The position numbers and the translations under genes are program-made. The notes beneath the pieces are model-generated. The model saw only the letters and a list, made by a program, of their open reading frames with translations. It was not told the DNA's origin and ran no database searches. From Symmachiella macrocystis (GTDB taxonomy: Bacteria > Planctomycetota > Planctomycetia > Planctomycetales > Planctomycetaceae): 64,000 nt of DNA. Location: contig NZ_SJPP01000003.1 in the NCBI RefSeq assembly GCF_007860075.1, forward strand, positions 248,001 to 312,000, in the 5' to 3' direction. Position 1 is the stretch's first letter, and each line of letters begins with the position of its first letter. Positions 1,892 to 63,458 of the stretch are shown here, piece by piece.

Positions 1892-2530
1892 CTACCAACT
1901 CTGCGCGGGCATTTCGCCGGCTAGAGATTCGATGCGGCCGGTCATTTCGTCCATGAAGGAACTCCGCTCGCCCGTCCAGCGAAACGAATCCCCCACAAAC
2001 ACATCGCAGAAGAACGGCACAAGCAGCGCTTCGCCGCGCGGCAGGGCCTTGCCAAAACCGTGCATAAAAATCGGCACCACATCCACATCCGGATGCCGTT
2101 TGGCAATGTGGGCGACGCCTGTTTTGAAGGTCTCGATCTGCTCCGGTTCGCCGCGGGTCCCTTCGGGAAATAGAATCACGATTTGATTCTTCTCAATCGC
2201 CTCGTTAATCGGCGCCAACGGATCGCGCCGCGCGTTTTTGACCTGCCGCTGTAGCGGAATGATGCCGATGATCTGGGTCGCGAACCATTTCAGCAAGCGG
2301 TTACGAAAAAAGTAATCCGCCGCCGCCACCGGCTGCACGTGCCGCAACTCCCGCGTGCTATACAACGTCATCAATGCCAATGCGTCGAGATGGCTATTGT
2401 GATTCGCCACAATCACCGCCGGCCCCGACCGCGGCAACCGCTCCGCATGCCGCACGTTCATGCCCAAAATAATCAGCATGATCGGCCGGACCACGATCAA
2501 GAAAAACAACGCGCGCAAGAAATGATTCAT
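1892..2530 (-). CDS. plsC: Lysophospholipid (1-acylglycerol-3-phosphate) acyltransferase
   Basis: This 212-residue PlsC-family protein would transfer an acyl chain to lysophosphatidic acid to give phosphatidic acid at the inner face of the membrane. The catalytic HX4D motif is at His44-Asp49 (NHNSHLD), and the second conserved block, FPEGTRG, is at residues 121-127. An N-terminal hydrophobic stretch (about 5-22) anchors it. The length is usual for short PlsC-type enzymes. It lies just downstream of the cdsA-like gene on the same strand, separated by about 150 bp that contain a large inverted repeat. The setting suggests it supplies phosphatidate to the neighbouring lipid enzymes rather than serving as the only housekeeping copy; that is inference. 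Confidence 0.88.
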   Translation of the reverse strand: MNHFLRALFFLIVVRPIMLIILGMNVRHAERLPRSGPAVIVANHNSHLDALALMTLYSTRELRHVQPVAAADYFFRNRLLKWFATQIIGIIPLQRQVKNARRDPLAPINEAIEKNQIVILFPEGTRGEPEQIETFKTGVAHIAKRHPDVDVVPIFMHGFGKALPRGEALLVPFFCDVFVGDSFRWTGERSSFMDEMTGRIESLAGEMPAQSW

Positions 2531-2577
2531 AGGCTTTCGCTGCCGAAAAAATTCACCACGGGGGGAATTAGACTGTA

Positions 2578-2650
2578 GGCTGTAGACTCTAGACTGTAGG
2601 GTTGCACGATCTCATCATTTCCTAAGGCCTACGGTCTAAAGCCTAAAGCC
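2578..2650. repeat. Imperfect inverted repeat between plsC and cdsA
   Basis: Positions 2578-2600 and the reverse complement of 2628-2650 match at about 18 of 23 bases, giving a possible long hairpin with a 27-base loop. A related phrase (a TAGACTGTA-type core) recurs near 11,786-11,850 beside the oxidoreductase gene. There is no clear U-tract, so it is not called a terminator. It may be a member of a small intergenic repeat family. Confidence 0.5.
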
Positions 2651-2679
2651 TTTTTTGCCTCCGTGGTAAATTGTCGTCT

Positions 2680-3660
2680 TCAAAAATAAAGATGATACAC
2701 GAAGTGAAAAAACAACGGAGCGGTATACGTCAAACTGTCTGCTCGATCCAAAATACCGCCGTGGCCGGGAAGAATGCTGCCGGAATCCTTCACGCCCAAA
2801 TCGCGTTTGATTGCCGAAATGGAAAGGTCTCCAAGAAACCCGGCGACGCCGATCAACAGACCGGCCAGCAACGACCACTTGGCATCCATCAATGTTAACC
2901 GCGGGCCGATCAACCAAGCCAACACGACCGTCGTCGCTACGCCTCCTAAAAAGCCCTCGACCGTTTTGCCGGGACTGACATTGGGAGCGATCTTGTGCCG
3001 GCCCAATGACTTGCCCCAAACGAACTGTGCGACATCGCCTAGCTGAGTCAGCACCACCAAAAAGATCAACAATCCCGGCCCCGGTTGCAGCGCCGATTCC
3101 ACCGTTGGCCAATCCGGCACTGCACGCCCCGTATCCACTGGTTTGAGCACCAACAAATAGGCCGCGTGCGACAGGCTGAAGACGGTCGTCATCAACCCCC
3201 AATGCACGACTCCCGCCGACCGCAAAAATCCCTCGGTGCGGCCGGCGAAGACCATGCGGGTGGGAATCAACAAAAATAGGTACACCGGAATGAAGATGAT
3301 AAACATCCCGTACCACGACAGATGTACCCAATAGAATTGCAGCGGGATACTCAAGTAGGCCCAAAACAGCACGCGGCGATCGGCGCGGCGAGTCGGAATC
3401 AGCGACAGATATTCCTTGAGTGCCAGAAAACTGACAAAGCCCAGGAAACACAGAAACCCCCATTCGGGCAGCGCCAGCGAAATGCCGAACAGCCCGGCAA
3501 TGATCCACCACGTCCGCGTCCGCTTGACCAATTCGCTGTGATCGCGCTGCGGCCGGAATTTGCAAACGGCAAAGACCAACACCGAAGAGGCAACCAAGAT
3601 CCCCAAAATTCCACCGAGCGCGACACGAACTTCGGGCGTAAGATGATCGAACAGGTGCAT
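2680..3660 (-). CDS. Phosphatidate cytidylyltransferase (CdsA/YnbB-like)
   Basis: The product is a 326-residue polytopic membrane protein that would convert phosphatidate and CTP to CDP-diacylglycerol. The C-terminal part carries the CdsA family signature, read here as SAIKRDLGVKDSG followed by LPGHGGILDRAD, which holds the conserved Lys, Asp and metal-binding Asp residues. About eight hydrophobic helices precede it. The ATG at 3660 is used. In this neighbourhood (CDP-alcohol phosphotransferase, hydrolase-methyltransferase and PAP2/phosphatase genes) it corresponds to YnbB of E. coli, a second CdsA-type protein, more than to the housekeeping CdsA that often lies beside uppS and dxr. Whether the cell has another cdsA cannot be judged here. 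Confidence 0.87.
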   Translation of the reverse strand: MHLFDHLTPEVRVALGGILGILVASSVLVFAVCKFRPQRDHSELVKRTRTWWIIAGLFGISLALPEWGFLCFLGFVSFLALKEYLSLIPTRRADRRVLFWAYLSIPLQFYWVHLSWYGMFIIFIPVYLFLLIPTRMVFAGRTEGFLRSAGVVHWGLMTTVFSLSHAAYLLVLKPVDTGRAVPDWPTVESALQPGPGLLIFLVVLTQLGDVAQFVWGKSLGRHKIAPNVSPGKTVEGFLGGVATTVVLAWLIGPRLTLMDAKWSLLAGLLIGVAGFLGDLSISAIKRDLGVKDSGSILPGHGGILDRADSLTYTAPLFFHFVYHLYF

Positions 3661-3866
3661 CCTGAAAATCCTTTACCATTTCGCCGGCATAAGATGTGCG
3701 GCATGGACGTCCGGGTTGTTTCAAGGCGTGCATGGTAACGATTTCCTGTTTTGCCTGCATGTCTTAAGGGACAGCATAATCAGATTGTTTGCGAAGATTG
3801 ATTGGGATAGGCTGAGAAGTATCGGCAACCTGCTTATTGCCCAATGTCTAATCTAGGACGCTCGCC

Positions 3867-4796
3867 ATGACGGATGAATCCTCAAAACGTCGACGCATGC
3901 GAATTCGTTTGTTGTTGCTATTTGCCATTTTATTGTTTGTCGTTTGCGCGCCGTGCTTTATGGGTTGTCCGTGGATTGGACGACATATTTATTGCAACCC
4001 GCTGACCGTCGCCATAATTGAGCAGTTGGGGGGATCCGTCGAAGGAATCCAAATCAGTGACCGTCCCTGCCAAGAAGTAGTAACAATCAAGCTCGACAAT
4101 ACGGCGTTTAATAATGCGGAAATGCATCGACTTCGAAATTTAACGTACCTTGAGAGACTATCGCTCAATAACACTCCGGTAACGGATGATGGCTTAGCAA
4201 ATCTCCAACAACTCACAGAGCTAAAGTCACTCGCACTTTCCGACACGCAAGTTACCAGTGCAGGATTGGACCACATCAAGGGTTTGAACAATTTGATATC
4301 TCTTCATCTGAGCCAGACGCTCCTTGATGATGGCGGATTGCAAAACCTTCGTGAATTGAAAAAACTGCGAATTTTATCGCTCAGTAATACTCAGGTAGGT
4401 GATGCGGGGCTGGAGAACCTTGAATCGTTGACAGACCTCCATCAGTTGTGGCTCGACGATACTAAAGTTGGCGACACAAGACTGGTCCACCTCCGAGGGC
4501 TAACGAAGCTCGTTTTTCTTCAGTTGAATAATACGGGTGTCGGTGATGCAGGTTTAGAACGACTGAGAGGACTGACAAATATGTGGTCATTGCTCCTTCA
4601 CAATAATCAAATCACCGACAAAGGTTTGGACGCTCTTACGCAGATGAACGAGCTTCGATATCTTCGACTCGATGGCAATCAAGTCACCGAAGTTGGAATT
4701 GAGAATTTGCAGCGAGCTCTTCCTGGTTGTCAAATTTATTGGAAGTCGCCACCTCGTTTTCCAATCACCCCTCCCGCACCGCCATCGACACACTAA
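3867..4796 (+). CDS. Leucine-rich repeat protein with N-terminal membrane anchor
   Basis: This 309-residue protein begins with an Arg-rich cytosolic stub and one hydrophobic helix (about residues 13-31, ending near a Cys), then carries roughly eight repeats of about 24 residues of the form L..L..L.L..T.V.D.GL. These form a leucine-rich-repeat solenoid of the kind abundant in planctomycetes. A weak AGGA-type site precedes the ATG at 3867. The gene is visibly richer in A+T than its neighbours, with more codons such as AAT, TTT and GAT, which may mark separate ancestry. It points the opposite way to the flanking lipid genes, and its last 32 bases overlap the 3' end of the hydrolase-methyltransferase gene tail to tail. 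Binding partner unknown. Confidence 0.8.
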   Translation: MTDESSKRRRMRIRLLLLFAILLFVVCAPCFMGCPWIGRHIYCNPLTVAIIEQLGGSVEGIQISDRPCQEVVTIKLDNTAFNNAEMHRLRNLTYLERLSLNNTPVTDDGLANLQQLTELKSLALSDTQVTSAGLDHIKGLNNLISLHLSQTLLDDGGLQNLRELKKLRILSLSNTQVGDAGLENLESLTDLHQLWLDDTKVGDTRLVHLRGLTKLVFLQLNNTGVGDAGLERLRGLTNMWSLLLHNNQITDKGLDALTQMNELRYLRLDGNQVTEVGIENLQRALPGCQIYWKSPPRFPITPPAPPSTH

Positions 4797-6555
4797 ATAT
4801 CCCTTCGTCATCCACCAGCGTCTCCAACTTGCGAAATCCCGCCGCCGCCACCAACTGATCCATCTCCACCTGCGTGCGGCAGCGCATCACCCAGGGGTCG
4901 CCGTCGCGGTTGGGTAACACGCGGGCGATCATTTCCTGCTGGGGATGCCACGGCTGATTGGTGTACAGCAACAATCCGCCAGCGGGGACCGCAGCTGCCA
5001 GACCGCGGAGTGACTCGCGAATTGGACCGTTATCGGGAAACAATTCGTACAGCCCGCTGACCACAGCGATATTCGGCTGCGGCGTGTGTGCGGCGATTGC
5101 TTCCGCATCAAACGCGTCGCTTTGGCGATAATCGACCGACGTGATGCCCATCGATTTCGCCAATGCACGGCCCCAATCCAAACCGCCGGTGTCGCGATCG
5201 CACAATACGGCAGACATTTCGACGTCCGCATGCCGCTGGATCGCTTCCAAGACATACCGTCCCGGTCCAGCGGCGATATCGAGCAACCGCACCGCTTCAC
5301 CGCGTTGGGCCGTTCGCGCGATGGCGCGATTCAACAGCTCAAGCATATGCACCTTGCGCTGCCGAATTCCCCGCCAACCGGGAGAATCCAGATAAGCCCG
5401 GTCAATCATCCGGCCAACAAACGTCGTCCCTTCCGCCCGATTGCGATAAACATGGTCCAACGATTCCCCGGAATCAAAACCAGTCCGCCAACCAATACGC
5501 ACCCCGCGACTCAATCGTCCACCGGTATTCATGCCCAATTTTTGCAGTGCATACGCCCACCGTTTGGGGGACAGCAGCGAAAGCGGTTGCTCCAAGTCGT
5601 CGCAGATCGACTTCGAATAACCCGACTTGTCCGCCTCCAATAATGACGCTGCCGGTGCCGGATCTTCGAATTGTCGCTCAATAAATTCCCGCGTCCGTGC
5701 GATCGGCAGGGCGCGTTCTTTTTCCCAAAATGTGGAGTGGTAAAACGACGGATTCACCTCCCTCTCTTTGACGGCGGACCCGAGCCGATCGAAAAACTGC
5801 TGTTGTGGTTTGGATTCCACCACATAGTCGGCACCGGACGACAGTAACAACGTCGGCGCCACAATCGCGCCGGCGTCTTCGATCAACCGCGTGGACGTAT
5901 CATGCACATCCAACAGAATATTCGTGGCGATCTGTGGCGTGACCAACGCGTCGTCGGCATACAATTGTGCTTGTTCTTGATCGTGCGTCAGCATTCGCGG
6001 TTTGACGTAACTGCTAACGAACGACTTGGGCTTTAACTTCTGCCACAACCGCAAGCCAGTGATGGCACCAGGGACATAAAGTTTAATCCGCAGCGCCGGC
6101 GTCGCGAGTACCATGGCACGAATGGGTGGCGCGTAATCATGCACCCAAGCGGCAGCCAACACGGCGCCCACGCTTTGTCCGACAACGGCCATGTCGGCGA
6201 TGGCGATCCCATGCGTTGCGGAAAGATGCCGAACAAATTCATCGGCATCGCGAACCATGCGTCCGAAACTTTCGGCATCACCTCGTTCGCCGGGCGAACG
6301 CCCATGACCGCGCGCATCGAAGGCAAAAAACCAGGTCTCCTCCATCCCTATGCGGTCGACAACATCCTGCCAACGGCCCGAATGTTCATGCCCCCGATGA
6401 AACAGCAGCACCGCTTGTGAGGATCGCCCTTGCGGCGCCCATGCACGATAAAACAACTCAGTGCCGTCACTGGTCGTGAAACAATGTTCCGACGCAATGC
6501 GGGTTGCCGGAAGTTGCGTGGATGAGTTTTCGATTTCAGCAAGCAGAGTCGCCAT
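4765..6555 (-). CDS. Alpha/beta hydrolase fused to SAM methyltransferase (YnbC-like)
   Basis: The product has 596 residues and two domains. Residues about 25-295 form a lysophospholipase-like alpha/beta hydrolase with nucleophile motif GQSVG (Ser128), the block FDARGHGRSPG, Asp243 as probable acid and His273 as probable base. Residues about 365-595 form a class I S-adenosylmethionine methyltransferase with motif I LLDIAAGPGRY (424-434). This architecture matches E. coli YnbC, found with a CDP-alcohol phosphotransferase, a CdsA paralogue and a PAP2/tyrosine phosphatase, the same partners as here. A plausible but unproven role is deacylating and methylating a lipid or its headgroup. No signal peptide is seen. 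A 68-base gap separates it from the upstream phosphotransferase gene, so co-transcription is likely. Confidence 0.85.
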   Translation of the reverse strand: MATLLAEIENSSTQLPATRIASEHCFTTSDGTELFYRAWAPQGRSSQAVLLFHRGHEHSGRWQDVVDRIGMEETWFFAFDARGHGRSPGERGDAESFGRMVRDADEFVRHLSATHGIAIADMAVVGQSVGAVLAAAWVHDYAPPIRAMVLATPALRIKLYVPGAITGLRLWQKLKPKSFVSSYVKPRMLTHDQEQAQLYADDALVTPQIATNILLDVHDTSTRLIEDAGAIVAPTLLLSSGADYVVESKPQQQFFDRLGSAVKEREVNPSFYHSTFWEKERALPIARTREFIERQFEDPAPAASLLEADKSGYSKSICDDLEQPLSLLSPKRWAYALQKLGMNTGGRLSRGVRIGWRTGFDSGESLDHVYRNRAEGTTFVGRMIDRAYLDSPGWRGIRQRKVHMLELLNRAIARTAQRGEAVRLLDIAAGPGRYVLEAIQRHADVEMSAVLCDRDTGGLDWGRALAKSMGITSVDYRQSDAFDAEAIAAHTPQPNIAVVSGLYELFPDNGPIRESLRGLAAAVPAGGLLLYTNQPWHPQQEMIARVLPNRDGDPWVMRCRTQVEMDQLVAAAGFRKLETLVDDEGIFSVSMAVREG

Positions 6556-6623
6556 TGTCTTTGTCCCCTCAATACTTGGTCAAGTGGCCTGTTAAGAGAG
6601 GGGCGCAAACAGGTAGCCGTATA

Positions 6624-7271
6624 TCACGCGGAATTTGGAGAATTCACTACATTTTCAGACGATGCCGCCCGTACTTCCGCTAAACCACGCCGGGCGCGGT
6701 TCACGATCGTTAGCATTAACAGAACAATTGCGACGACGAGCAAGCCGTCCAACCACCGCCCGGTCTCGACCCCACAACCGAGCAATAAGCCAATGAAGCC
6801 AAACAAAAACGCACGATCACTCTTCCCCAAGGGACCGTCATAGCGCCGCTCGCTCCCGATTTGCACCGCAACCACGCCGGTCATCTCGCTGATAATGCCT
6901 TCAATCACCACCAACACCACCAACACCGGGTGCACACCTGGTACCAGCGCAAATGGCAGATACAGCGCAGCATCGGCAATCACATCCCCCAATTCATTCA
7001 GGATCGCCCCCAGCGGCGATTTCATGCCGTGTTCGCGAGCCAACATGCCGTCAACCGCATTGAGCGCCATCCGCACGAATAAAAACGGCGGAACCAGCAG
7101 CAGCGGCCACCGTCGTTCTGGGTAGAGCGCAATACAAGCCCCAACCGCAATCGACAACACGGCCGCAGCCACGGTGACCTGATTGGCCGTCACGCCCGCC
7201 GCCGCTAATCCGCGTGTGATCGGTCGCAACAGCGCTTGGAACCGCGGCTTCAAATCGTAAATGCTCGGCAT
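6624..7271 (-). CDS. CDP-alcohol phosphatidyltransferase family protein (YnbA-like)
   Basis: This 215-residue membrane protein has about six hydrophobic helices and a CDP-alcohol phosphotransferase motif at residues 71-96. Enzymes of this family replace CMP in CDP-diacylglycerol by an alcohol. The canonical motif is D-x2-DG-x2-AR-x8-G-x3-D-x3-D; here the first and third acidic positions are Asn (Asn71 and Asn92), while Asp74, Gly75, Ala78, Arg79, Gly88 and Asp96 are kept. From memory, E. coli YnbA shows the same exchange, so it may be a subfamily trait rather than damage; this needs an alignment. The accepted alcohol is unknown. The gene starts at ATG 7271 and is divergent from the PAP2/phosphatase gene. 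Confidence 0.83.
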   Translation of the reverse strand: MPSIYDLKPRFQALLRPITRGLAAAGVTANQVTVAAAVLSIAVGACIALYPERRWPLLLVPPFLFVRMALNAVDGMLAREHGMKSPLGAILNELGDVIADAALYLPFALVPGVHPVLVVLVVIEGIISEMTGVVAVQIGSERRYDGPLGKSDRAFLFGFIGLLLGCGVETGRWLDGLLVVAIVLLMLTIVNRARRGLAEVRAASSENVVNSPNSA

Positions 7272-7400
7272 AGTTTTTCCATGATATTTGTCAAATCAAG
7301 TCGCCATAAACAACAGGCGGCTCTGCTACTCACTATAGCATTTCCAAACCACGGCGCAGCTAACACAAACCTTGCCATACCGAATTTCATCAAGGCAATC

Positions 7401-8732
7401 ATGAGCAACCAATACCCCAAGCATCAACGATCCGATGCCATGTCATGGAAACAACCAGCGCTCACCTCCGCAGGGTTGTCACTATTATTCATGTTGGTTT
7501 ACTCAGCAACAAACTACATCTCATCGCTCCGCAGTGACGTGGGAACGTGGTACTACGACTGGGAACAGATCATTCCATTCGTCCCGGCGATGATCATTCC
7601 CTATATGTCGATCGACCTGTTTTTCGTCGCTGCTCCATTTCTCTGCCGTGATCGTGTGGAACTGCGAATCTTGTCACGGCGAATCTTGCTGGCCATTCTC
7701 TTAGCAGGTGGTTGTTTTTTGCTGTTTCCTCTGCAATTGGCCGTCGAACGTCCGCCGGTATCGGGGATGCTGGGAGAGTTATTCAATCAATTTCGCCAAT
7801 TCGACCTCCCGTACAACCTCTGCCCGTCGCTGCACATCGCGCTGCGGACGATTCTAGCCGTGCATTACGCACGGCACACCCACGGAGCAGTCCGCTGGGC
7901 ATCCAACTTTTGGTTTAGTTTGATTGGCCTATCGACGTTGCTGACCTATCAACACCATATCGTCGACGTTGCCGGCGGTTTCGTATTAGCCGCAGTCTGC
8001 TTCTACCTCGTCCGTTCGACGCCGTTCCGATTACCGGTCGAGCAGAACATGGCTGTCGGACGACGGTATGCCTGCGGCGCAATCGCTTTGGCCGTTGTCG
8101 GGATCGGCATCGGTTCCTGGGGGCTCTGGTTATTGTGGCCGGCCGTTTCGGCGGGATTGGTCGCTGCGGGGTATTTCGGCATCGGACCAGGAATTTTCGA
8201 CAAACGCGACGGGCAACTGCCATTCTGTTCGCAGCTCATCCTGGCTCCGGTGTTTTTCGGGCAGTACTTATCGTGGTTACATTACCGCCAAGAATGCCGC
8301 CCGTGGGATACCGTAACCGAACAGCTTCGGATTGGCAGACGTTTGGCGGACCATGAAGCCGCAGAGGCGATTCGCGCTGGCGTCACCGCTGTTGTCGACC
8401 TGACCGTTGCATTCTCCGAACCAAGTGAATTTCAACGGCTGGATTACTTGGCCCTGCCAGTCTTAGATTTGACCGCTCCTACGCCGGAGCAACTCGATAC
8501 GGCGGTTCAATTCATCGAATTGCATTCACAGCGCGGAGTGGTTTACGTGCATTGCAATATCGGCTATTCCCGCAGCGCCGCCGTGGTGGGTGCTTACCTG
8601 CTACACACCGGCATGGCCCGTCACGCAGATGAGGCAATGGCGCAGTTACGTGCGGCGCGACCGACAATCGTAATCCGCCCTGAAGCAGAGGCGGCAATTC
8701 GTCGCTATCACAGGGAAAGGTGCGGGCGATAG
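7401..8732 (+). CDS. PAP2-like membrane domain fused to dual-specificity phosphatase (YnbD-like)
   Basis: The ATG at 7401 is chosen because an AAGG site lies just upstream and because the longer reading would run back across the start of the divergent gene. The 443-residue product has an N-terminal polytopic part with PAP2-type motifs (CPSLHIA and YQHHIVDVAGG) and a C-terminal cysteine phosphatase domain with signature HCNIGYSRS (Cys385, Arg391). PAP2 domains remove or transfer lipid phosphates, and dual-specificity phosphatases can act on proteins or on lipid phosphates, as PTPMT1 does on phosphatidylglycerophosphate. The same fusion is seen in E. coli YnbD. Removal of a headgroup phosphate from the YnbA product is a reasonable guess. 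Confidence 0.82.
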   Translation: MSNQYPKHQRSDAMSWKQPALTSAGLSLLFMLVYSATNYISSLRSDVGTWYYDWEQIIPFVPAMIIPYMSIDLFFVAAPFLCRDRVELRILSRRILLAILLAGGCFLLFPLQLAVERPPVSGMLGELFNQFRQFDLPYNLCPSLHIALRTILAVHYARHTHGAVRWASNFWFSLIGLSTLLTYQHHIVDVAGGFVLAAVCFYLVRSTPFRLPVEQNMAVGRRYACGAIALAVVGIGIGSWGLWLLWPAVSAGLVAAGYFGIGPGIFDKRDGQLPFCSQLILAPVFFGQYLSWLHYRQECRPWDTVTEQLRIGRRLADHEAAEAIRAGVTAVVDLTVAFSEPSEFQRLDYLALPVLDLTAPTPEQLDTAVQFIELHSQRGVVYVHCNIGYSRSAAVVGAYLLHTGMARHADEAMAQLRAARPTIVIRPEAEAAIRRYHRERCGR

Positions 8733-8829: not shown

Positions 8830-9693
8830 CTACTTTTCTTCGTTGTAGGTACGCACGCTGTCGCCGCCTTCTTTAGCTTTTTCTTCTTCACGTTCCTTGG
8901 ACTTGGTCACAGCAATGGTCACCATACCTTGGGCTGCTTGAAGTTGACGACCGCTGAAGTACGCTTCGTCCGGACGTCCGACGCGATCGAATTTCTTCTG
9001 CGCCAATTCACGCCAGCTCATGTCATTGGCAAGATGCCACGCGGCCGCTTGAACGGCGCCGAAATCGCTGTTGCTACGGCTCGAGCCATAGCTTTCGACC
9101 AATTCCAACAATGGTCCGTTGCTGGTGAATTCTTCCAACGGTTTGATTTCGTATTCCATTTTGGGACGCGGCTCGGCTTTACCATGCTCGAGGCAAACCG
9201 TCTTGATTTTGATCTTCGCGGTTTTTTCAGCAGGTACGGAAAATAATCCGCCGCCACCACCGCCACCACCAAATCCGCCACCACCACCACCGAACCCGCC
9301 GCCGCCGCCAACCGCTTGGCCGCCACCGCCGCCGCCTTGTCCGCCAAAGCCACCGCCACCGCCACCGACATTCCCGCCGGCACCGCCAATTTGTTTCATC
9401 ACGTGCACAGCCGCGAATGCCTTCGGCATTTGGATCGTCAACGGCTTGTCACCCGTATTGGTGATGAACAGGTTTCCGCCTTTGGAATCCTTGGCAATGT
9501 ACGAAACGTCCAACGACTTTTGCTCAATCCCATCGAACAGCGGCACGACATCCGCAGTCGGATCGAGGGTCAATTTGGTAATGGCTCGGGATTTCGACGC
9601 CCCTGTGAGCGTGACAACACCGGCGATTGATAAACAAGTCATCAATAACGCGGTTCGTCCTCGAAACGGCTTGCTAAGGAATCGCGGCAACAT
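8830..9693 (-). CDS. Secreted protein with Gly-rich linker, function unknown
   Basis: The start at ATG 9693 is preceded by AAAGGAAA at good distance; an upstream in-frame ATG lacks such a site. The 287-residue product has a signal peptide (basic start, hydrophobic core about residues 17-34, likely cleavage after SRA). A compact region around residues 40-110 resembles an immunoglobulin-like or adhesion fold by strand pattern only. It is followed by a run of almost pure Gly with a few Phe, Ala and Gln (about 120-160) and a hydrophilic tail ending in charged residues. I do not recognise a family. It is transcribed alone and ends at a strong terminator. The long GGC/GGT run is prone to slippage, so its length may vary between strains. 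Confidence 0.7.
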   Translation of the reverse strand: MLPRFLSKPFRGRTALLMTCLSIAGVVTLTGASKSRAITKLTLDPTADVVPLFDGIEQKSLDVSYIAKDSKGGNLFITNTGDKPLTIQMPKAFAAVHVMKQIGGAGGNVGGGGGGFGGQGGGGGGQAVGGGGGFGGGGGGFGGGGGGGGLFSVPAEKTAKIKIKTVCLEHGKAEPRPKMEYEIKPLEEFTSNGPLLELVESYGSSRSNSDFGAVQAAAWHLANDMSWRELAQKKFDRVGRPDEAYFSGRQLQAAQGMVTIAVTKSKEREEEKAKEGGDSVRTYNEEK

Positions 9694-10453
9694 GGAACAT
9701 TTCCTTTCACGGAACGACGGCAATTTTGTTATTCGCCGGAAACTAAGGCACGGAAATCTGCACAGAACTTTTGCTAAAGAAATCGCAGGAATTCAACCAT
9801 TCCCTCTATTTACCCTAGACTTACATAAAATTGTATCGCGCCGTCGCCGGCTCGATCAACAATAAGTTTAATGAACTTGGGATATTTTCCCAGATTCATC
9901 CCACCTCAAAGCCAAAAAACGGGATTCGCGGGCTGTCATACTGCTAGTTTCGACTGCAAACCTTGCGTCAACACATCACAGCCGAGAATCAGGCCATCGC
10001 GAGCATTGCCCAACACAGCTGCGTTTTCCGCACTGTCACCCGACGACTTCGCTAAACGCTAACGAAACAACGGAAAAAAAGAGGCTTCCCGCGATATCGA
10101 CGACAAACAAGCGAACCTATGATATTCCTGCCAGCCGTAAACAACTCAACGTAGACAGAGTGTTCGCTTCGCTCGTGCTATTCCGGTTCATAGGTCATAA
10201 CGTAGAAACCCCGAACATTTCACACCGATTTTAGCGATTTCCAAGAGAATCTTTTCCCAACCGCACCGTACGCCAGAAAAGAGACGTTACAGTCGGCAAA
10301 ACCGTTAGGACTGTGCTGGCCCCGTGCAATGAACACCAAGTAGCAAACAGCGAGACACTTGAAGCCACGTTCCCTGCCGGTATCATGACCAAATTGCCCG
10401 GCGACCACCGGGCGGTACGCTAAGAATTCGACACGGACATTGAGGAATCCAGC
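9694..10453. other. Intergenic region, no gene recognised
   Basis: This stretch of about 760 bases separates the start of the Gly-rich gene from the small Lys-rich gene. A 63-codon frame at 9871-10062 has no ribosome site and no sequence character of a protein. An imperfect hairpin lies at about 9868-9898. Promoters for both flanking genes should be here, but I cannot point to a reliable -35/-10 pair. Confidence 0.5.
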
Positions 10454-40230: not shown

Positions 40231-40653
40231 ATGCCACTGAAAGTTCGAGAACACGAAGAACCGACGTTGAACCTGACGCCGATGATCGACGTCGTGTTTC
40301 TGTTGATCATCTTCTTTATGGTGGGCGCTCGGTTTACGGAGTTGGAACGGGAATTCGATATCAACCTGCCCACCGTCAGCGAAGCGCGGCCGTTGACCAA
40401 TCCGCCCGACCGGATCGAAGTCAATGTGTTTCGCAACGGCCGCATCAAAGTGGCTGGTCAGTTTCTAACGATCGACGAACTCAACGTACGGCTGCAACAA
40501 GCCCAACAGCGTTACGCCGATCAAGCGGTGATGATTCGCGCGGATGGCAACAACGCCTATCAACAGGTGATCGACGTTCTGAGCATCTGCGAACAGGCCC
40601 AAATCAAACATTTCACATTGGCCGCTCGTGTCGAAGGTGAGGATCCGCAATGA
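40231..40653 (+). CDS. exbD: Biopolymer transport protein ExbD/TolR
   Basis: A GGGGGA site precedes ATG 40231. The 140-residue product has one helix (about 18-37) carrying the proton-relay residue Asp20 (NLTPMIDVVFLLIIFFM) and a periplasmic domain with VMIRADGNNAYQQVIDVL typical of the family. It partners the ExbB-like channel just upstream (57-base gap). Its stop overlaps the start of the next gene by four bases (ATGA), so translation is coupled. Confidence 0.93.
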   Translation: MPLKVREHEEPTLNLTPMIDVVFLLIIFFMVGARFTELEREFDINLPTVSEARPLTNPPDRIEVNVFRNGRIKVAGQFLTIDELNVRLQQAQQRYADQAVMIRADGNNAYQQVIDVLSICEQAQIKHFTLAARVEGEDPQ

Positions 40654-42884
40654 GTGCGACAATTTTCACCGGACTCGAAAACTGGTTACCCTCGCTGTCG
40701 TCCAACAATTGGCTGTTGAACCTGGCCTGGGTAGCGCTGGGGTTGGCCACGGTGGTTTTGGCATTTATGTTCATCACCGGCCACGGCAATGCGCGGCAAG
40801 TGCGGATCTCGTTAATGATTTCGATCATTGCCCACTGCGCGCTGGCATTGGGCACGGATAAAATCCCCATGGCCGGCGCCGACATCCGTGTCAAACCCAA
40901 AGAGCCAACCTTTGAGATCGAGCAATTGGTGTTCACCGCGATCGACGATCAGCAACAAGTCGCCGACCCCAATGCCCCAGCTTGGGATGCCCTAACCCCG
41001 ACGCCACTGCCCGCCACGCAGCGTCAAAGTTACGAAGACGCGACCGAGGAACTCCCGGAGATCGCCCGTGAAGAGCAGTCGCCGCAAGACCCCGAACCAG
41101 TGGCGCTTGCCGATGTTCCCGACGAAATGCCAGAGGACCAACTTGAAATCCCAAGCGCCGAAAGCAGTGTCCCGGCGACCGAACGGACAGCGGACGGAAC
41201 CCAACTCGACAATTACGAAGAGACAGTCGAATCGCGTCCCGACTTGGACATCCCGGCACCACGCACCGGAGAGCGGCAACCGGAGGACCAAGGGGTGGCG
41301 AAATCTGAAATAGAACGCGAAAGTCGTCGTGGCCGCACAGAAGACCCCACTGCCAACTTGCGGGAAAGCCAGCGAATGGAAGTGGCCGACGCTACCACCG
41401 ACCCGTCGTCACAATTGCAACGCGGGCCGAATTCCGAGGCGGCCAATCGCCGCACTGCAGATGCCGCCGAGACCTTATCGGCGGATGACCCCGGAGCGGA
41501 GACGGCCCAACGTCGCGAAGAGGTCGGCAAAGGGCGCCCCAAATCGAAGGCCTTTACCCGTCGTGACAATCCCGGCACCACGCCCAGCACACCTGGTTTG
41601 GATGACGATGTCGAACGGAATCCCCGACCGGAAAGCGACGACGATCCCGACTCGCTCTTGTTGACGCGTGAGGGAGGGCCACAACCGATCTCCGAAGACG
41701 CAAAATTGCGTCTGACGCGCACGAAAACGACGCGATCCGGCGACCAACGACGTGTGGCCCGCTTGCCTGCTACGTATCAACTTCGCAATGTCGACAACCG
41801 CGAGCGAGTCGCCATCCGCCACGGAGCGACCACCGCTTCTGAAGAGGCGGTGGAAGACAGCCTGCAATGGTTGGCCGCGCATCAAAGCGCCGCCGGATTT
41901 TGGGATGCCAATGGCTTTACAGAAAATTGCCCCAAAGGAGCCGACGTTTGTTGGGGACTGGCCGGACTCAAAGGACACCAAGGTTCCGAAAAAGACAACG
42001 TCCCCAAATCGGGCGTCCAGGCGGACTCGGGGCTGACCGGGCTTGCTGTTTTGGCATTTCTCGGCGCAGGCTATACCCACGAAGAAGGAATCTACGCCGA
42101 CCAAGTCGACCATGCTTTGCGGTGGTTGATTCGCCAACAAGACGGTGACGGCTTCCTCGGCGGCAACGCCACGCATTACGCCAAGATGTATTGTCACGGG
42201 ATGGCGACAATCGCGCTGGGTGAGGCCTATGGCATGACACAGGACCCTACGCTCCGCGAGCCATTGGAAAAGGCGATTGCATTCATCGTAGCACGGCAGA
42301 ATCCCAAGGATGGCGGTTGGCGGTATACACCCGGCAAACTGGGCGACGTCAGCATGTTTGGTTGGCAATTGATGGCGCTCAAAAGCGCCGAAACGGCGGG
42401 ACTCACCTTTCCCGCTGAAACACGCAGCCTGACGATCAATTTTCTTGTCTCGCACTCACGCGGTAAAAAACGAGGATTATCCGCATATCGCCTCGACGAT
42501 AAGGTCACCCCCGCCATGACCGCCGAAGCTCTGTTTTGCAAACAGGTATTGGGCATCAAACGCGAAAACTCGCAAAGCGCTGCCGCCGTCGACTATCTGA
42601 TGCAACATCTGCCGAAACAGTCGGAACAAAATTTGTATTACTGGTATTACGGAACGTTGGCCATGTTTCAATACGGCGGGCAGCCGTGGGAGCAATGGAA
42701 TGAACGCGTCCGCGAAACGTTGGTGGAAACGCAACGCAAAGACGGACACGCAACCGGCAGTTGGGATCCGCGACCTCCCTGGGGCGACTATGGAGGACGC
42801 ATCTATTCCACCGTGCTGAGCACGCTCTGCTTGGAAGTCTATTACCGCTTCCTCCCCATGTACCGCGCCGGCGAAACTGAGTAA
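40650..42884 (+). CDS. Membrane protein with terpene cyclase-like alpha/alpha toroid domain
   Basis: The 744-residue protein has two N-terminal helices (about 17-40 and 50-68), then some 320 residues of acidic, Glu/Pro/Arg-rich, probably disordered sequence. A C-terminal domain (about 390-740) has squalene-cyclase/prenyltransferase-type repeats such as DSLQWLAAHQSAAGFWDANG, ALRWLIRQQDGDGFLGG and FIVARQNPKDGGWRY. No DXDD acid motif of squalene-hopene cyclase is evident, so a non-catalytic binding role is as likely as an enzyme. Its start overlaps exbD by four bases. In a TonB or Tol system this place holds the protein driven by ExbB/ExbD; here the layout of anchor, long linker and terminal domain is similar but the terminal domain differs. 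Confidence 0.85.
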   Translation: MSATIFTGLENWLPSLSSNNWLLNLAWVALGLATVVLAFMFITGHGNARQVRISLMISIIAHCALALGTDKIPMAGADIRVKPKEPTFEIEQLVFTAIDDQQQVADPNAPAWDALTPTPLPATQRQSYEDATEELPEIAREEQSPQDPEPVALADVPDEMPEDQLEIPSAESSVPATERTADGTQLDNYEETVESRPDLDIPAPRTGERQPEDQGVAKSEIERESRRGRTEDPTANLRESQRMEVADATTDPSSQLQRGPNSEAANRRTADAAETLSADDPGAETAQRREEVGKGRPKSKAFTRRDNPGTTPSTPGLDDDVERNPRPESDDDPDSLLLTREGGPQPISEDAKLRLTRTKTTRSGDQRRVARLPATYQLRNVDNRERVAIRHGATTASEEAVEDSLQWLAAHQSAAGFWDANGFTENCPKGADVCWGLAGLKGHQGSEKDNVPKSGVQADSGLTGLAVLAFLGAGYTHEEGIYADQVDHALRWLIRQQDGDGFLGGNATHYAKMYCHGMATIALGEAYGMTQDPTLREPLEKAIAFIVARQNPKDGGWRYTPGKLGDVSMFGWQLMALKSAETAGLTFPAETRSLTINFLVSHSRGKKRGLSAYRLDDKVTPAMTAEALFCKQVLGIKRENSQSAAAVDYLMQHLPKQSEQNLYYWYYGTLAMFQYGGQPWEQWNERVRETLVETQRKDGHATGSWDPRPPWGDYGGRIYSTVLSTLCLEVYYRFLPMYRAGETE

Positions 42885-56495: not shown

Positions 56496-59141
56496 TCACG
56501 AGGTCTGGCTGATGACGACTTGGTTGGGATGTAGCGTGATGTTTTGGTTGTCGGACTGCGGGAGTTTTGCGGACGATAAGAGCACAGTGCCCTCCATCGG
56601 AATCGAGACGGCTTTGTCGGGACTTTCAGCGGGGCCTATGAGCCGTGTTTGCACGATGACCTCTGTTCCGGAATCTTTTCGAAAGCGCAGGAAAAAGATT
56701 TCAGTCTGCGGATCATAACCGGCCGCCATGCTGTCGGCGGACAACCAAGCTTCGGCGAGGCCTTGTTTTCGCAGTGCGATCAAATCGCGGTACCAGGCGA
56801 ACATCTCCTCGTCGCGGCGGTCGGGGACATCGTGTTTGGCTTGATAAAACGTGTCGGATTGGGACGGCAGCAGAAAATCGCCCCAGACGTGTTGTGGAAA
56901 TTCACGAGCCCGGCCCGAATCGACAGCTTGTTTCAGTGACGCATTTTCAAAGTCGACGAAGAACGGAAACGGCGCATCGATCGCGAATTCTTCGCCCATA
57001 AAAATGATCGGGATGCCGGGATACAATAGCGTTAATGCCGCCGCCGCTTTTTGAAACGCCTTGGATGTCAATTGATGAATCCTCTGGCCTTGTGGGTGAT
57101 TGCCAACGGAGTCGTGTGTTTGCAAGCCGATGATGAACGACTCGATGTAGGACTTCCCTGCGGCGTTGCGTGACAGATCTCGGCGTTGCGATGCCTCGAT
57201 GCGTTTTTCGTCGCGACCGAAATAGACAAACCCGTATTGCAGCGCGTCGGCCAAATCGCCACCGAGGTATTCTCGATGGGCGATCCGTAGATCGGGTAAT
57301 GCATGTGCATAGATCGCATGCATTATACAGTCGCACCAGACGCCGTCGAATGCCAACCGATCGACTTGGTCGTTCAGCGATTCCTGATCAAACATGTTTG
57401 TCTCGGCGATCAAATGAATCGTGCGGTCGATCGATTCAGCGTAGCGGGACACGTCGCGGCGCAATTCATCCACAATTGCCGGACGGCTGTCGTCTTTTAT
57501 AAAGTGCGCCGCATCTAGCCGCAGTCCATCGAGATGATAATCCTCCAGCCAGAACAGGGCATTGTCGATGACAAACTGCCGCACCTCTGTGGAGCCCGGT
57601 TCATCATAGTTAAAGGCGTCGCCCCAGGGGGTGTGATGTTTCGTGGATGCATAGGGACCGAACTCGGTCAGATAATTTCCTTCCGGTCCAACGTGGTTGT
57701 AGACCACGTCGAGGATCACCGCCATACCCGCCGCATGGCAAGCATCGACGAAACGTTTAAAGTCGTCCGGCTCGCCGTAGGTGTTGCGGACGGCGAAGAG
57801 GTTCACACCATCATAACCCCAGTTCCACTGCCCGGGCGTTTGCGCCACCGGCATCACTTCGACAGCGGTGATACCCAGTGCGGACAACTCGGGCAGTTGC
57901 GCCGTCGCCGCTTGAAAGTCCCCCGCCTGCGTAAATGCGCCGATGTGCAATTCATAGATGACGAGATCGCGCTTGGCGATGCCGGGCCAGTTCTTATCGG
58001 TCCAGGGAAATGCGAGGGGGTTGATAATTTGTGACGGCCCATGCACACCGTCGGGTTGATACCGTGAGGCTGGATCGGGGCGGACTGTTCCGTCGTCCAG
58101 CCGATACTGATAGCGGGCCTTTGCAGCGGCCTCTGGCACAACGCCGGTGAAGTACCCCGACTCGCCTTTTTGCAACGCGTGCGTGACCGTCGTTTGACCG
58201 TTGTCAATTTCCACTTCGACACGACGCCGATCGGGCGCCCAGACACGAAAATACGTGGCCTGATCGCCGATTGGCGTGGCTCCCAATTTTTGGGGCAAGG
58301 ATTTCTCGCGATCAACCAATCCAAACCAACGACACCCTTCCCAGACCCCGGTGGTGGCTGGCTGGGTCGCCAGATACAGTCGGTTTTCCCAACCGGCAGT
58401 GCGATGCGCCGCATACGCCTGTTGCGCGACTGCACGGTTCGCATTCCCCACAACAATCGCCCGATAACCAGCTGTCAGTGCTGCCAGATCGTTGCCCGAA
58501 TCGCCCGCGAAGACAATTGCATCCTGATGCAGATCATTCTGTTCGACCCACCAAGCTAATGCGTGCGCCTTAGAGCCCCCACTGGGGAGTAGATCGATTA
58601 AGCCATCGCCGTTGAAAGGATCGACGCTGTGGATAATTGAATAGGGTGCGGCGGTTTGCGAGAGTTTCTGTTTGATTTGCTCGACCAAGCAATCCAGCTG
58701 CGCGGCATCGGCGTAGTAACTGAGCTTGAACGGCCCCTGTTTCTCTGATTCTTGTAGTCGCAACCCGTCGATAGCGGATAGATGCTGCTTCAATTCATCG
58801 ACAGGCATTTTAGCGACGATCTCGCCAAGATGTTCCGCATAAGCATGGACCGTCTTGAGAGTGCCGTCGGACTGCCGATGAAAGATTGACGTTCCTACAT
58901 CGCAAATCAGCCAGTCAGGTTGTGGTAGTTGGTGCTGCTCGATTGCCGTTTGAGCGGATGCGAAATGCCGGCCCGTGATAAAAATCAACGTGACGTGATG
59001 ACTCTGCAATTGCGCTGCTAACAGGGACAAGTCGGCGGTATTTGCAGGATTGTCAGCGAGTGGAATCAGCGTGCCGTCGAGATCGGTCGCCAAGATTTGA
59101 TTTGTCAAAACGGGGCGGTCGTGCTGCGAGGGGGTGTTCAT
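56496..59141 (-). CDS. treZ: Sucrose-phosphatase-like HAD domain fused to maltooligosyl trehalose trehalohydrolase
   Basis: The 881-residue product has two parts. Residues about 14-260 are a HAD-IIB phosphatase of the sucrose-6-phosphatase type: LATDLDGTLIPL (motif I), FITGR, Lys in GGSKAHAL and GDSGNDLAAL. Residues about 270-881 are TreZ: an N-terminal beta domain (FRVWAPDRRRVEVEI), then a GH13 barrel with NWGYDGV, DVVYNHVGPEGNY, nucleophile in DGLRLDAAH, acid/base in LIAETNM and the third Asp in THDSVGN. TreZ releases trehalose from maltooligosyl trehalose. The usual DDFHHAL block reads CDCIMHAIY. TreY is not in the window. The fusion sits downstream of amylosucrase and sucrose-phosphate synthase on one strand. 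Confidence 0.87.
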   Translation of the reverse strand: MNTPSQHDRPVLTNQILATDLDGTLIPLADNPANTADLSLLAAQLQSHHVTLIFITGRHFASAQTAIEQHQLPQPDWLICDVGTSIFHRQSDGTLKTVHAYAEHLGEIVAKMPVDELKQHLSAIDGLRLQESEKQGPFKLSYYADAAQLDCLVEQIKQKLSQTAAPYSIIHSVDPFNGDGLIDLLPSGGSKAHALAWWVEQNDLHQDAIVFAGDSGNDLAALTAGYRAIVVGNANRAVAQQAYAAHRTAGWENRLYLATQPATTGVWEGCRWFGLVDREKSLPQKLGATPIGDQATYFRVWAPDRRRVEVEIDNGQTTVTHALQKGESGYFTGVVPEAAAKARYQYRLDDGTVRPDPASRYQPDGVHGPSQIINPLAFPWTDKNWPGIAKRDLVIYELHIGAFTQAGDFQAATAQLPELSALGITAVEVMPVAQTPGQWNWGYDGVNLFAVRNTYGEPDDFKRFVDACHAAGMAVILDVVYNHVGPEGNYLTEFGPYASTKHHTPWGDAFNYDEPGSTEVRQFVIDNALFWLEDYHLDGLRLDAAHFIKDDSRPAIVDELRRDVSRYAESIDRTIHLIAETNMFDQESLNDQVDRLAFDGVWCDCIMHAIYAHALPDLRIAHREYLGGDLADALQYGFVYFGRDEKRIEASQRRDLSRNAAGKSYIESFIIGLQTHDSVGNHPQGQRIHQLTSKAFQKAAAALTLLYPGIPIIFMGEEFAIDAPFPFFVDFENASLKQAVDSGRAREFPQHVWGDFLLPSQSDTFYQAKHDVPDRRDEEMFAWYRDLIALRKQGLAEAWLSADSMAAGYDPQTEIFFLRFRKDSGTEVIVQTRLIGPAESPDKAVSIPMEGTVLLSSAKLPQSDNQNITLHPNQVVISQTS

Positions 59142-59159
59142 TGATTTTCGTTAAGCTGC

Positions 59160-61142
59160 TCAAACGCGTTTCAACCACAGGATCTGGTACGGTTCCAACT
59201 CGACGGGAGCGGAGGTCTCGAACGTCTTCTTTTCAATCACGTCTTCAAAGAACCGCCCGATCCCGGCTGTGCGGAGTTTGTTTCCTTGGACGCTCTGAAC
59301 TTCTTCAGAAAAATTTGCCAGCACGATCAGACGATGCCCCTCGAAGATCCGCAAATAGCCCAAGACATGCGAATTGTACGTGTTGATCAACTCCATATTC
59401 TGGCCGGCCAAGGCTGGTAAGGCTTTGCGAAGGGCAATGAGCTGTTGTGTCGATTTGAAAATGCGGTTGCGGATCGATCCGTTGCCCGATTCGATATGGT
59501 CGTTCAATTCTTCCAGATAGTCCCATTGCATTTTCGGCCGATGAATCCAGCGAGAATCGCCCGCCTTGGCAGGATCGGTCACGAACTCGTAATCGTTGAG
59601 CATGCCCCATTCTTCGCCCAGATAGAGCAAAGGGATGCCGCCGATGCTGAGCGTGACGCCATGCAGCAGAATCATGCGACGAATCGCCAATTCCTTTTTC
59701 TCTTCATCATCCTCTTCGATCGCCTGTTCCAAACCAGCCAACGAAGCCATGGTCCCCGAAATCCGCATGTCGCCAGTTTTGATGTTCTCCTGGAACGGAA
59801 TCCCGCGGGCAAACGAACCGGGGAATTGTCCCGTGTAAAACTGATTGAGAAATTGCCGATGATCGTATGCCGAGATCCCGATCATGGCCGCATCGTCGTC
59901 GTCGAATGTCCAGCCAATGTCGTCGTGGCAGCGCAAGTAATTGACCCAAGCGGTGTGTTCCGGCAGGCGATGCCGGTGCCGCAACGTTTGCATGATCAGA
60001 CTCACCTGCCGGGTGGCCAACGACTCCCACAGCAACGCCATCAATGTGGGGTTGTAAGAGAGTTGGCATTCCTGCGGGCTGATGTATTTGACGACTTCAT
60101 CCGGATGCACGATCGCTTCGGATTTGAACAACAAACTCGGCGTCGAAATGCGGGCCAAATGATTGAAGGCTTGGATCAACAGATGCGCTTCCGGCAGATT
60201 TTCACAGCCGGTCCCCATCTGTTTCCAGATAAAGGCCACCGCATCCAGTCTGAGTACGTCGACGCCGACATTGGCCAGGAAAAACATTTCTTCCAACATT
60301 GCCCGGAACACGGCGGGGTTGCCGTAATTCAAGTCCCATTGAAAGCTGTTGAAGGTGGTCCAGACCCATTGCTGCATACCGTCGTGCCAGGTGAAGTTTC
60401 CCCGCCGTACGGTCGGAAAAATCTCACGGAGCGTCGCTTCGTACTGCTCAGGCACGGTCCGGTCGGGGAATAAGTAATAAAACTCCTGGTATTCTCGATC
60501 GCCCGCTTGGGCTTTTTGCGCCCAACCATGATCGTCGGCGGTATGGTTGAAAACGAAGTCCAGGACTAGGCAAATCCCCGCGCGTCTGAGTTCGGCGGCC
60601 AACATTCGCAGGTCGTCAATCGTTCCGAGTCGGGGATCGACGGAGCGATAATTGCTGATGGCATAACCGCCATCATTGTTGCCCGGTCGCACGGCAAACA
60701 GCGGCATCAAGTGCAGATACGAGAGTCCCAACTGCTGAAAATAGTCGACATGCTCACGGGCCTTGACGAGATTGTCACTGAACAGATCGACATACAGCGC
60801 GCCGCCGACAATCTTCTCGGATTGAAACCAATCCGGTTCATTGATGCGATGGCGGTCCAAGTCGCGTAGTTCCGCCGGACGGTCGGACCAAGCCTCGGCC
60901 GCCGTCTGCAAGATACGCTCGATATGAAAAAAGAAGTCGTACCGCGAACCGTACAAACGAAACAAAATCTCAAACAGCGGACGCCAGTGCGCGTTTAAGC
61001 GGCGCTCGAATTCACTGCGCTGTGCCTCATCAATTTCGTTGTTCCGCCAGACATCCTCCAACCGCGGCTTGAGTCGTTCCAATGTCAGATCGGCTTTGAA
61101 CTCAATCCCTTCGGGAGCGCCGTTATCATTCAATCCGATCAT
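59160..61142 (-). CDS. Amylosucrase (GH13)
   Basis: ATG 61142 gives 660 residues and overlaps the preceding gene by 17 bases; an upstream ATG at 61205 is possible. The protein matches amylosucrase rather than other alpha-amylases: [56 protein letters not shown] with the nucleophile Asp, then [14 protein letters not shown] with the acid/base Glu, and [14 protein letters not shown]. Length is close to the known enzyme of about 636. Amylosucrase transfers glucose from sucrose to alpha-1,4-glucan and releases fructose. No signal peptide is seen, so it works inside the cell. It lies between sucrose-phosphate synthase and the TreZ fusion. Confidence 0.9.
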
Positions 61143-63339: not shown

Positions 63340-63458
63340 GTTCACCTCAATTGAATTCAGGATCGTCATGCGAGCAGTGTGAATTATTTATAATACCGTT
63401 TTCACAAAGCGTACGCATCTATCGTGTTGAATTGCCGCGTCCATGCAGGTTGAGCCGT

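Follow-up and report, generated by a model that had tools for sequence, protein, structure and literature searches.

A planctomycete counterpart of the Ynb and Arc1 gene clusters, with predicted phospholipid enzymes and an altered motif in its CDP-alcohol-phosphotransferase-fold protein

Gene content of the locus

We analysed a stretch of 64,000 nucleotides (hereafter the window) from the 7.57 Mb genome of the planctomycete Symmachiella macrocystis, in which five genes for predicted lipid enzymes lie between positions 1892 and 8732 (Table 1). A first-pass annotation had read them, from the sequence, as plsC, a cdsA paralogue, a hydrolase–methyltransferase fusion, a CDP-alcohol phosphotransferase and a PAP2–phosphatase fusion. 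This reading holds, as all five are present at these places in the list of open reading frames (ORFs) and the expected Pfam domains exceed the cut-off in all five proteins. In YnbD, the PAP2_3 match is barely above threshold (28.2 versus 27 bits), and the match to PF01569 (PAP2) falls below its own cut-off.

Table 1. Genes and features of the lipid locus in the window
Feature	Position	Strand	Evidence
PlsC-like acyltransferase (lysophospholipid/1-acylglycerol-3-phosphate type; arc1E counterpart)	1892..2530	-	PF01553, E 3.6e-25
YnbB, CDP-diacylglycerol synthase paralogue (arc1F counterpart)	2680..3660	-	PF01148 (CTP_transf_1), E 8e-63
Leucine-rich-repeat gene, judged outside the pathway	3867..4796	+	PF12799 and other leucine-rich-repeat models; opposite strand
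YnbC, fusion of monoglyceride-lipase-like alpha/beta hydrolase and methyltransferase (arc1B counterpart)	4765..6555	-	PF12146 (Hydrolase_4), E 4e-61; PF12147 (Methyltransf_20), E 1e-119
YnbA, CDP-alcohol-phosphotransferase-fold enzyme with N-x2-D-G...G-x3-N-x3-D motif (arc1A counterpart)	6624..7271	-	PF01066, E 8e-9
Gap separating the divergent genes ynbA and ynbD; candidate shared promoter region	7272..7400		Gene starts
YnbD, fusion of PAP2 and dual-specificity phosphatase (arc1C counterpart)	7401..8732	+	PF14378 (PAP2_3), PF00782 (DSPc)

The genes fall into two minus-strand pairs, plsC–ynbB and ynbC–ynbA, followed by the divergent ynbD. The leucine-rich-repeat (LRR) gene, which is convergent with ynbC and overlaps its 3′ end, separates the two pairs, and despite this insertion and the divergent ynbD the co-location is kept. 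The ynbD ORF (7236–8732, plus strand) opens at a TTG at 7236, the likelier starts being the ATG codons at 7401 or 7440.

Relation to E. coli ynbABCD and to housekeeping enzymes

The proteins of the window are 46, 46, 49 and 34% identical to YnbA, YnbB, YnbC and YnbD of E. coli K-12 by BLAST over nearly their full length, and thus the proposed match to these four proteins is not due to chance. We also compared YnbA and YnbB with the housekeeping enzymes PgsA and CdsA, with which the first-pass annotation allowed that they might group. YnbB of the window scores 243 bits against E. coli YnbB, in an alignment of 290 residues, but 109 bits against E. coli CdsA and 89 bits against the CdsA of its own genome; only the C-terminal part (121–126 residues) aligns with CdsA, and no grouping with CdsA across the whole length of the protein was found. 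YnbA scores 151 bits against E. coli YnbA, compared with 33 and 25 bits against the two other CDP-alcohol phosphotransferases of the genome and 24.6 bits against E. coli PgsA. The scores favour the Ynb proteins by far, and therefore YnbA and YnbB do not group with housekeeping PgsA and CdsA.

Within E. coli, K-12 ynbABCD was matched in 4579 of 5426 complete genomes, with at least 80% covered at one place in 4242; the remaining 337 of the 4579 have no single place with 80% of the cluster. An insertion sequence lies inside the cluster in all five best matches listed (H16–H20), so some E. coli strains at least carry an interrupted ynb operon. A search of the open-access literature, to which all our literature searches were confined, found no paper under ynb names with the function of the cluster as its title subject.

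Neighbourhood and distribution of the cluster

Conservation of the neighbourhood across phyla, on which the first-pass annotation had made its proposal depend, was assessed around ynbC. The genome_contigs collection was scanned with a six-sequence YnbC alignment, and the best 80 of at least 573 relatives were used; these are the closest matches rather than a random sample, and the same loci also supplied the neighbour profiles. Neighbours were counted within 6.5 kb of ynbC in the 59 loci with at least 5.5 kb of flank on each side, the 21 others being dropped. YnbA was found near ynbC in 57 of the 59 loci, YnbD in 55, YnbB in 46 and the acyltransferase in 45, and all four partners in 43. The best 80 loci span Pseudomonadota, Verrucomicrobiota, Planctomycetota, Acidobacteriota and others, so that the neighbourhood is conserved in several phyla. 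The acyltransferase is likewise confirmed as a member of the set: it accompanies ynbC in most relatives outside E. coli, and in the window the plsC-like gene adjoins ynbB, where E. coli has none.

The partial sets consist of YnbA and YnbD only (11 loci, all Rhizobium), YnbA, YnbB and acyltransferase (two loci) and YnbA, YnbB and YnbD (one locus), and two loci (L042 and L068) gave no neighbour match. The eleven Rhizobium loci (L052, L053, L055, L070, L071, L076, L080, L082, L084, L086 and L098) match ynbA, ynbC, ynbD and a small protein of the Arc1D type described below; neither ynbB nor an acyltransferase was matched there within 6.5 kb of ynbC.

In a YnbC tree of 83 rows (L013, L017, L054, L080 and L089 were left out), YnbC of the window groups with Planctomycetota rows in a set of six with support 99, which gives no support to a recent transfer from Pseudomonadota into the genome. 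Its nearest row, L019 (JAJFLM010000448.1; 76% identity), is from a 3.6 kb contig labelled Deltaproteobacteria; as it sits inside the Planctomycetota clade, this contig may be misbinned. Full-length ynbC is rare in Planctomycetota, occurring at E ≤ 1e-40 in five of 294 genomes including the source genome, with one further match to the methyltransferase only.

YnbA has an altered active site on a PIP-synthase-like fold

Eight residues of CDP-alcohol phosphotransferases are described as absolutely conserved in the motif D1xxD2GxxAR...GxxxD3xxxD4, in which D1–D3 bind metal and D4 is the likely base; phosphatidylinositol-phosphate (PIP) synthases use a phosphorylated acceptor (Clarke et al. 2015; PMC4634129). 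YnbA of the window departs from the PF01066 signature at D1 and D3, which are both Asn, while it retains D2, D4 and the G, A and R residues and still matches the family model above cut-off. The cluster loci gave 79 YnbA-type proteins (77 distinct), and every one has Asn at D1 and D3: 57 carry the strict pattern N..DG..AR.{8}G...N...D and the other 22 the same two Asn by alignment. When 294 Planctomycetota genomes were searched with a YnbA profile, 30 loci were obtained, all with both Asn; the profile was built from Asn-type proteins and hence favours them, some of these loci had already been counted, and they represent the top of the search, most weaker matches below them having been left unread. 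In contrast, all four motif Asp are present in E. coli PgsA and in both other CDP-alcohol phosphotransferases of the source genome.

Two further residues accompany the Asn pair. Among 102 distinct Asn-type core regions, for which both Asn were required for inclusion, Arg is found four positions, or one turn of the helix, before the first Asn in 101 and an acidic residue directly after the second Asn in 102, while E. coli PgsA and MtPgsA1 have neither. The core regions divide into type 1 (69), with Arg or Lys after the Ala, and type 2 (33), with Leu, Val, Ile or Met. Neither an Asn-type CDP-alcohol phosphotransferase motif nor the accompanying Arg at −4 was found in the open-access literature searched.

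The AlphaFold model of YnbA (pLDDT 90.9) has the CDP-alcohol phosphotransferase fold. Its nearest solved fold is the PIP synthase 5d91 (Z 19.9, root-mean-square deviation (rmsd) 2.9, 193 residues), and it is less like the phosphatidylglycerophosphate (PGP) synthase 7drj (Z 11.8, rmsd 4.0, 168 residues) and the phosphatidylserine synthase 7b1k (Z 11.3, rmsd 3.3, 147 residues). Of the pair of phosphate-binding Arg of MtPIPS, R195 aligns exactly with the invariant R192 of YnbA in a profile alignment, and R155 lies one residue off R153. Among named models, YnbA scores best with archaetidylinositol-phosphate synthase, at 69 bits, and PIP synthase, at 45 bits, neither score coming near the cut-off.

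A smaller YnbA–YnbB–PlsC set in planctomycetes

The YnbA profile matched at E ≤ 1e-6 in 66 of the 294 Planctomycetota genomes. Fourteen genomes score at least 260 bits and carry type 1 YnbA, the next best score being 83 bits; two of the 14, the source genome and G017, also carry a ynbC match. We examined 22 further loci of 8–14 kb each at a profile threshold of E ≤ 1e-8, comprising ten of the 12 type 1 genomes without ynbC and 12 type 2 loci. YnbB lies beside YnbA in 22 of 22 and an acyltransferase is present in 21 (the exception is L156), while YnbC and YnbD were found in none at this threshold. The ynbA and ynbB genes are adjacent or overlapping in the planctomycete loci examined, whereas in the window they are separated by the LRR gene and ynbC. 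As YnbC and YnbD are missing from all 22 loci, YnbA–YnbB–PlsC looks like the synthesis core, and YnbC and YnbD look like additions. Planctomycete loci of this reduced form were not found in the open-access literature searched.

Catalytic residues and folds of the other enzymes

The catalytic residues of the other four enzymes are largely retained. The HX4D motif of the acyltransferase has its His in 62 and its Asp in 62 of 65 homologues; the protein scores 77.6 bits with an Aas-type model and 69 bits with the PlsC-type model, both under cut-off. The SPGKT and KDSG...DR.DS residues of YnbB are kept in 66–69 of 69 homologues. In YnbC, the hydrolase half of which is nearest to monoglyceride lipases, the Ser, Asp and His are kept in 86, 87 and 85 of 87 homologues.

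For YnbD, with the truncated row L054 left out, the PAP2 His/His/Asp are present in 72 of 72 homologues, and the Cys, Arg and Asp acid of the phosphatase in 71, 71 and 70 of 72. The phosphatase domain is nearest to PTPMT1 (Z 19.8, rmsd 1.7, 143 residues), in a tie with DUSP23 (Z 19.4) and others. PTPMT1 is a PGP phosphatase; the YnbD phosphatase half is of the PTPMT1 type by residues and fold only, not by substrate. Fold searches with whole YnbD listed phosphatase-domain matches, and thus the PAP2 half lies outside the fold comparison. At the position of an Arg seen in solved phosphatases, and which we take to belong to the motif of PAP2-family phosphatases, the PAP2 half has Val, Thr, Pro or Ala. 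A profile of 14 YnbD PAP2 halves gave six matches among PDB sequences at E ≤ 10, all lipid phosphate phosphatases (best E 0.0022). The PSLH...HxxxD of this half is a motif of the AUR1/inositol-phosphorylceramide (IPC)-synthase kind; no AUR1 was among the PDB sequence matches, and we do not claim this reading.

The cluster corresponds to P. aeruginosa arc1

The proteobacterial gene order ynbA, ynbC, ynbD, small protein, plsC, ynbB is one that we took to be PA2541–PA2536 of P. aeruginosa, and this was then checked by primer sites. Allowing one mismatch, the PA2541 start primer of Ting et al. matched one of 398 genomes of the Pseudomonas segetis family (G420), exactly. When ten gene-specific parts of the PA2541 and PA2536 primers were compared with G420, eight matched with 0–1 mismatches and two had no match within 2; G420 is P. 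aeruginosa or a close relative. In G420 the ynbA homologue begins at the PA2541 start and the ynbB homologue at the PA2536 start, and between the two lie ynbC, ynbD, the small protein and the acyltransferase. The gene order and the primer sites thus establish the identity with Arc1. Identities between the window and G420 are 58% for YnbA (the P. aeruginosa-like Arc1A), 41% for YnbB, 51% for YnbC, 40% for YnbD and 30% for the acyltransferase. Judged by these sequences, the set in the window corresponds to P. aeruginosa arc1A–F, a link that goes beyond the earlier match to ynb.

According to the accessible text of Ting et al. (2022; PMC8926400), PA2541–36 is arc1A–F, antagonism resistance cluster 1, which is controlled by Gac/Rsm and in which five of six genes are predicted to function in phospholipid metabolism. 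An in-frame deletion in arc1 lowers survival of P. aeruginosa under attack by the type VI secretion system (T6SS) of B. thailandensis, cells without arc1A being more sensitive to such attack, and Arc1 is read there as a broader factor. A 2025 study (PMC12663445) reports that arc1A helps cells to withstand the lipase effectors TseL and Tle1. The term ynb is absent from the main text of both papers, and the eLife paper was the only one found in the open-access literature for the PA2541–36 locus tags.

A five-protein profile of the small membrane protein at the Arc1D position gave no match at E ≤ 1 in the window, the rest of the genome not being searched. At E ≤ 1e-3 this profile finds a match in 44 of 86 loci, including four that had contributed to the profile, but none in the E. 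coli locus, and the small protein is thus an accessory part of the cluster. The source genome has one match to PF10101 (DUF2339; 297 bits, C1:2802733–2804829, L158), the family used to identify homologues of Arc3A, another antagonism resistance factor (PMC8926400); as a defence context, this match is suggestive only.

Proposed function and alternatives

With moderate confidence, we favour the view that the set is an Arc1/Ynb-type module, i.e. a dedicated glycerophospholipid side branch whose product helps the envelope to survive attack by rivals, phospholipase-type toxins included. The PlsC-like enzyme would make or remake phosphatidate, from which YnbB would convert a local pool to CDP-diacylglycerol. 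YnbA, with its PIP-synthase fold and altered site, might then transfer the phosphatidyl group to a polyol that is small and probably phosphorylated, and the dual-specificity phosphatase half of YnbD may remove the leftover phosphate from the resulting phosphatidyl-polyol-phosphate to give a phosphatidyl-polyol. Later processing of a lipid or by-product could fall to YnbC, the lipase/methyltransferase, and to the PAP2 half of YnbD. All of these reactions are inferred, as are the headgroup and any role in defence beyond P. aeruginosa. E. coli YnbB makes CDP-diacylglycerol in vitro, yet it cannot replace CdsA for bulk phospholipids (PMC6362211, PMC7018664), which fits a dedicated pool. The first-pass annotation, which had proposed the order phosphatidate, CDP-diacylglycerol, transfer and dephosphorylation, is partly supported and right in outline: with catalytic residues kept in four of the five enzymes this order is possible, with the altered motif of YnbA as a reservation.

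Several observations weigh against this view. Two motif Asp of YnbA, metal ligands in PIP synthase, are Asn, so that CDP-alcohol phosphotransferase activity is not certain, and only one of the two phosphate-binding Arg of MtPIPS is matched exactly in the profile alignment, R153 of YnbA being one residue off R155. No inositol-1-phosphate synthase (PF01658) was matched in the source genome or the E. coli control, and thus inositol phosphate from the usual synthase is unlikely as the acceptor. In E. coli, ynbB knock-outs grow normally (PMC6362211, PMC7018664), and no lipid assigned to the ynb or arc1 cluster was found in the open-access literature searched. With regard to defence, the arc1 mutant kept its defect whichever of the tested B. 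thailandensis effectors was removed singly, Tle1 and Tle3, both lipases, among them (PMC8926400), and the role of arc1A is auxiliary to that of arc3A (PMC12663445); the accessible text of both papers places the defence role in P. aeruginosa only. The source genome gave no match to the T6SS sheath gene (PF05943).

As a tentative extension, in which we place clearly less confidence, YnbA might form a separate class of its fold, in which Asn replace two metal-binding Asp and the near-invariant Arg replaces a metal ion. It might then carry out a different transfer, e.g. to a phosphate or sugar-phosphate nucleophile, to give an undescribed phospholipid that would serve as an inducible shield against membrane-attacking toxins in E. 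coli, P. aeruginosa, rhizobia, verrucomicrobia and planctomycetes, with YnbA–YnbB–PlsC as the minimal synthesis unit.

We considered four other explanations. An unlikely one is that the cluster serves the synthesis of the pyrophosphate glycolipid MPIase or a similar X-PP-diacylglycerol lipid, with YnbB supplying CDP-diacylglycerol, YnbA possibly joining it to a sugar phosphate and the PAP2 half recycling pyrophosphate lipids. In E. coli, MPIase rises when YnbB is overproduced, and a backup role in its synthesis has been proposed for YnbB, but deletion of ynbB causes no significant change in the MPIase level, and CdsA and YnbB are reported to make the precursor themselves, with YnbA unmentioned in the accessible text (PMC6362211, PMC7018664). 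The Asn/Arg site of YnbA could suit a phosphate nucleophile; however, the methyltransferase, lipase and phosphatase would be left unexplained.

It is similarly improbable that the cluster is a repair module, in which the acyltransferase re-acylates lysophospholipids made by phospholipases, monoacyl products are removed by the monoglyceride-lipase-like half of YnbC, and the other enzymes rebuild phospholipid from phosphatidate. Such a module would agree with the contribution of arc1A to surviving lipase effectors (PMC12663445), with the likeness of the YnbC hydrolase to monoglyceride lipases and with an acyltransferase that fits the Aas-type model as well as the PlsC-type. On the other hand, an acyltransferase gene is absent beside the set in E. 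coli ynb and in locus L093, and YnbC and YnbD were found in none of the 22 reduced planctomycete loci, so that the supposed repair steps vary while the unusual YnbA is constant. An effect of Arc1 on lysophospholipid levels is not reported in the accessible text of PMC8926400 and PMC12663445.

Redundant synthesis of phosphatidylglycerol, with YnbA as a second PGP synthase and YnbD as a second PGP phosphatase, seems to us very unlikely. Four arc1 products are homologous to enzymes of this pathway (PMC8926400) and PTPMT1 is nearest in fold to the YnbD phosphatase domain, within the tie, but the distance of YnbA from E. coli PgsA and from the PGP synthase fold (Z 11.8 versus 19.9) and the loss of two Asp that are kept in PgsA and in the two other CDP-alcohol phosphotransferases of the genome argue against it. 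Least of all do we expect inositol phospholipid synthesis of the Bacteroides kind, with YnbA as PIP synthase and YnbD as PIP phosphatase and inositol-phosphate transferase: although the fold of the YnbA model and its best named models point this way, and the Bacteroides cluster joins a CDP-alcohol phosphotransferase, a lipid-phosphate phosphatase and an inositol-phosphate transferase (PMC9246714), PF01658 has no match in the source genome or the E. coli control, the PIP synthase BT_1523 has the canonical Asp motif that YnbA has not (PMC9246714), and the PAP2 half matched only lipid phosphate phosphatases, weakly, among PDB sequences. An inositol lipid as the product is accordingly kept as a minor rival only.

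The favoured Arc1/Ynb-type module ties an uncharacterised E. coli operon to a published P. aeruginosa defence cluster, and the question of which lipid Arc1 makes could be asked in the most tractable bacterium, E. coli. The conserved YnbA motif allows a precise hypothesis at the level of single residues, and N-x2-D-G...N-x3-D with Arg at −4 can serve as a sequence tag for locating the module in other genomes.

Other features of the window

Beside the cluster, at 8830–9723 (minus strand), lies a gene for a predicted protein with a long Gly-rich stretch of the GGGFGG type that matches nothing in Pfam or NCBIfam at E ≤ 0.01. A 744-residue ORF at 40650–42884 (plus strand) has no Pfam match at E ≤ 1e-5. 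A sucrose-type cluster at 56496–63369 (minus strand) combines an alpha-amylase with two kinds of fusion, namely glycosyltransferase domains joined to sucrose-phosphate phosphatase and a CBM48/alpha-amylase protein preceded by an N-terminal sucrose-phosphate-phosphatase domain.

Comparison with known systems

The inositol-lipid cluster BT_1522–1526 of B. thetaiotaomicron includes a transferase that we take to be of the PAP2 type. Like the window, it clusters a CDP-alcohol phosphotransferase, a lipid-phosphate phosphatase and a transferase; unlike the window, it has the canonical Asp in BT_1523, its own inositol-phosphate synthase, and a PgpA-type rather than a dual-specificity phosphatase (PMC9246714). 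PIP synthases of R. salmoninarum and Mycobacterium are the closest solved proteins to YnbA, both in fold (Z 17.7–19.9, rmsd 2.9–3.8, 182–199 residues) and in sequence (E 2e-11), but they keep Asp at D1 and D3, where YnbA has Asn, together with the Arg at −4 and the acidic residue after the second Asn. The ynbABCD cluster of E. coli K-12 has all four genes with the same domain fusions and the same altered YnbA motif as the window; however, it is one tight ynbA–ynbB–ynbC–ynbD operon without an acyltransferase, whereas the window has plsC–ynbB, the LRR gene, ynbC–ynbA and a divergent ynbD. E. coli ynb is thus trimmed in the opposite way to the reduced planctomycete loci, with YnbA–YnbD kept and the acyltransferase absent. 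P. aeruginosa arc1 shares with the window the counterparts of YnbA, YnbB, YnbC, YnbD and the acyltransferase, and differs from it in a sixth protein of about 150 residues at the Arc1D position.

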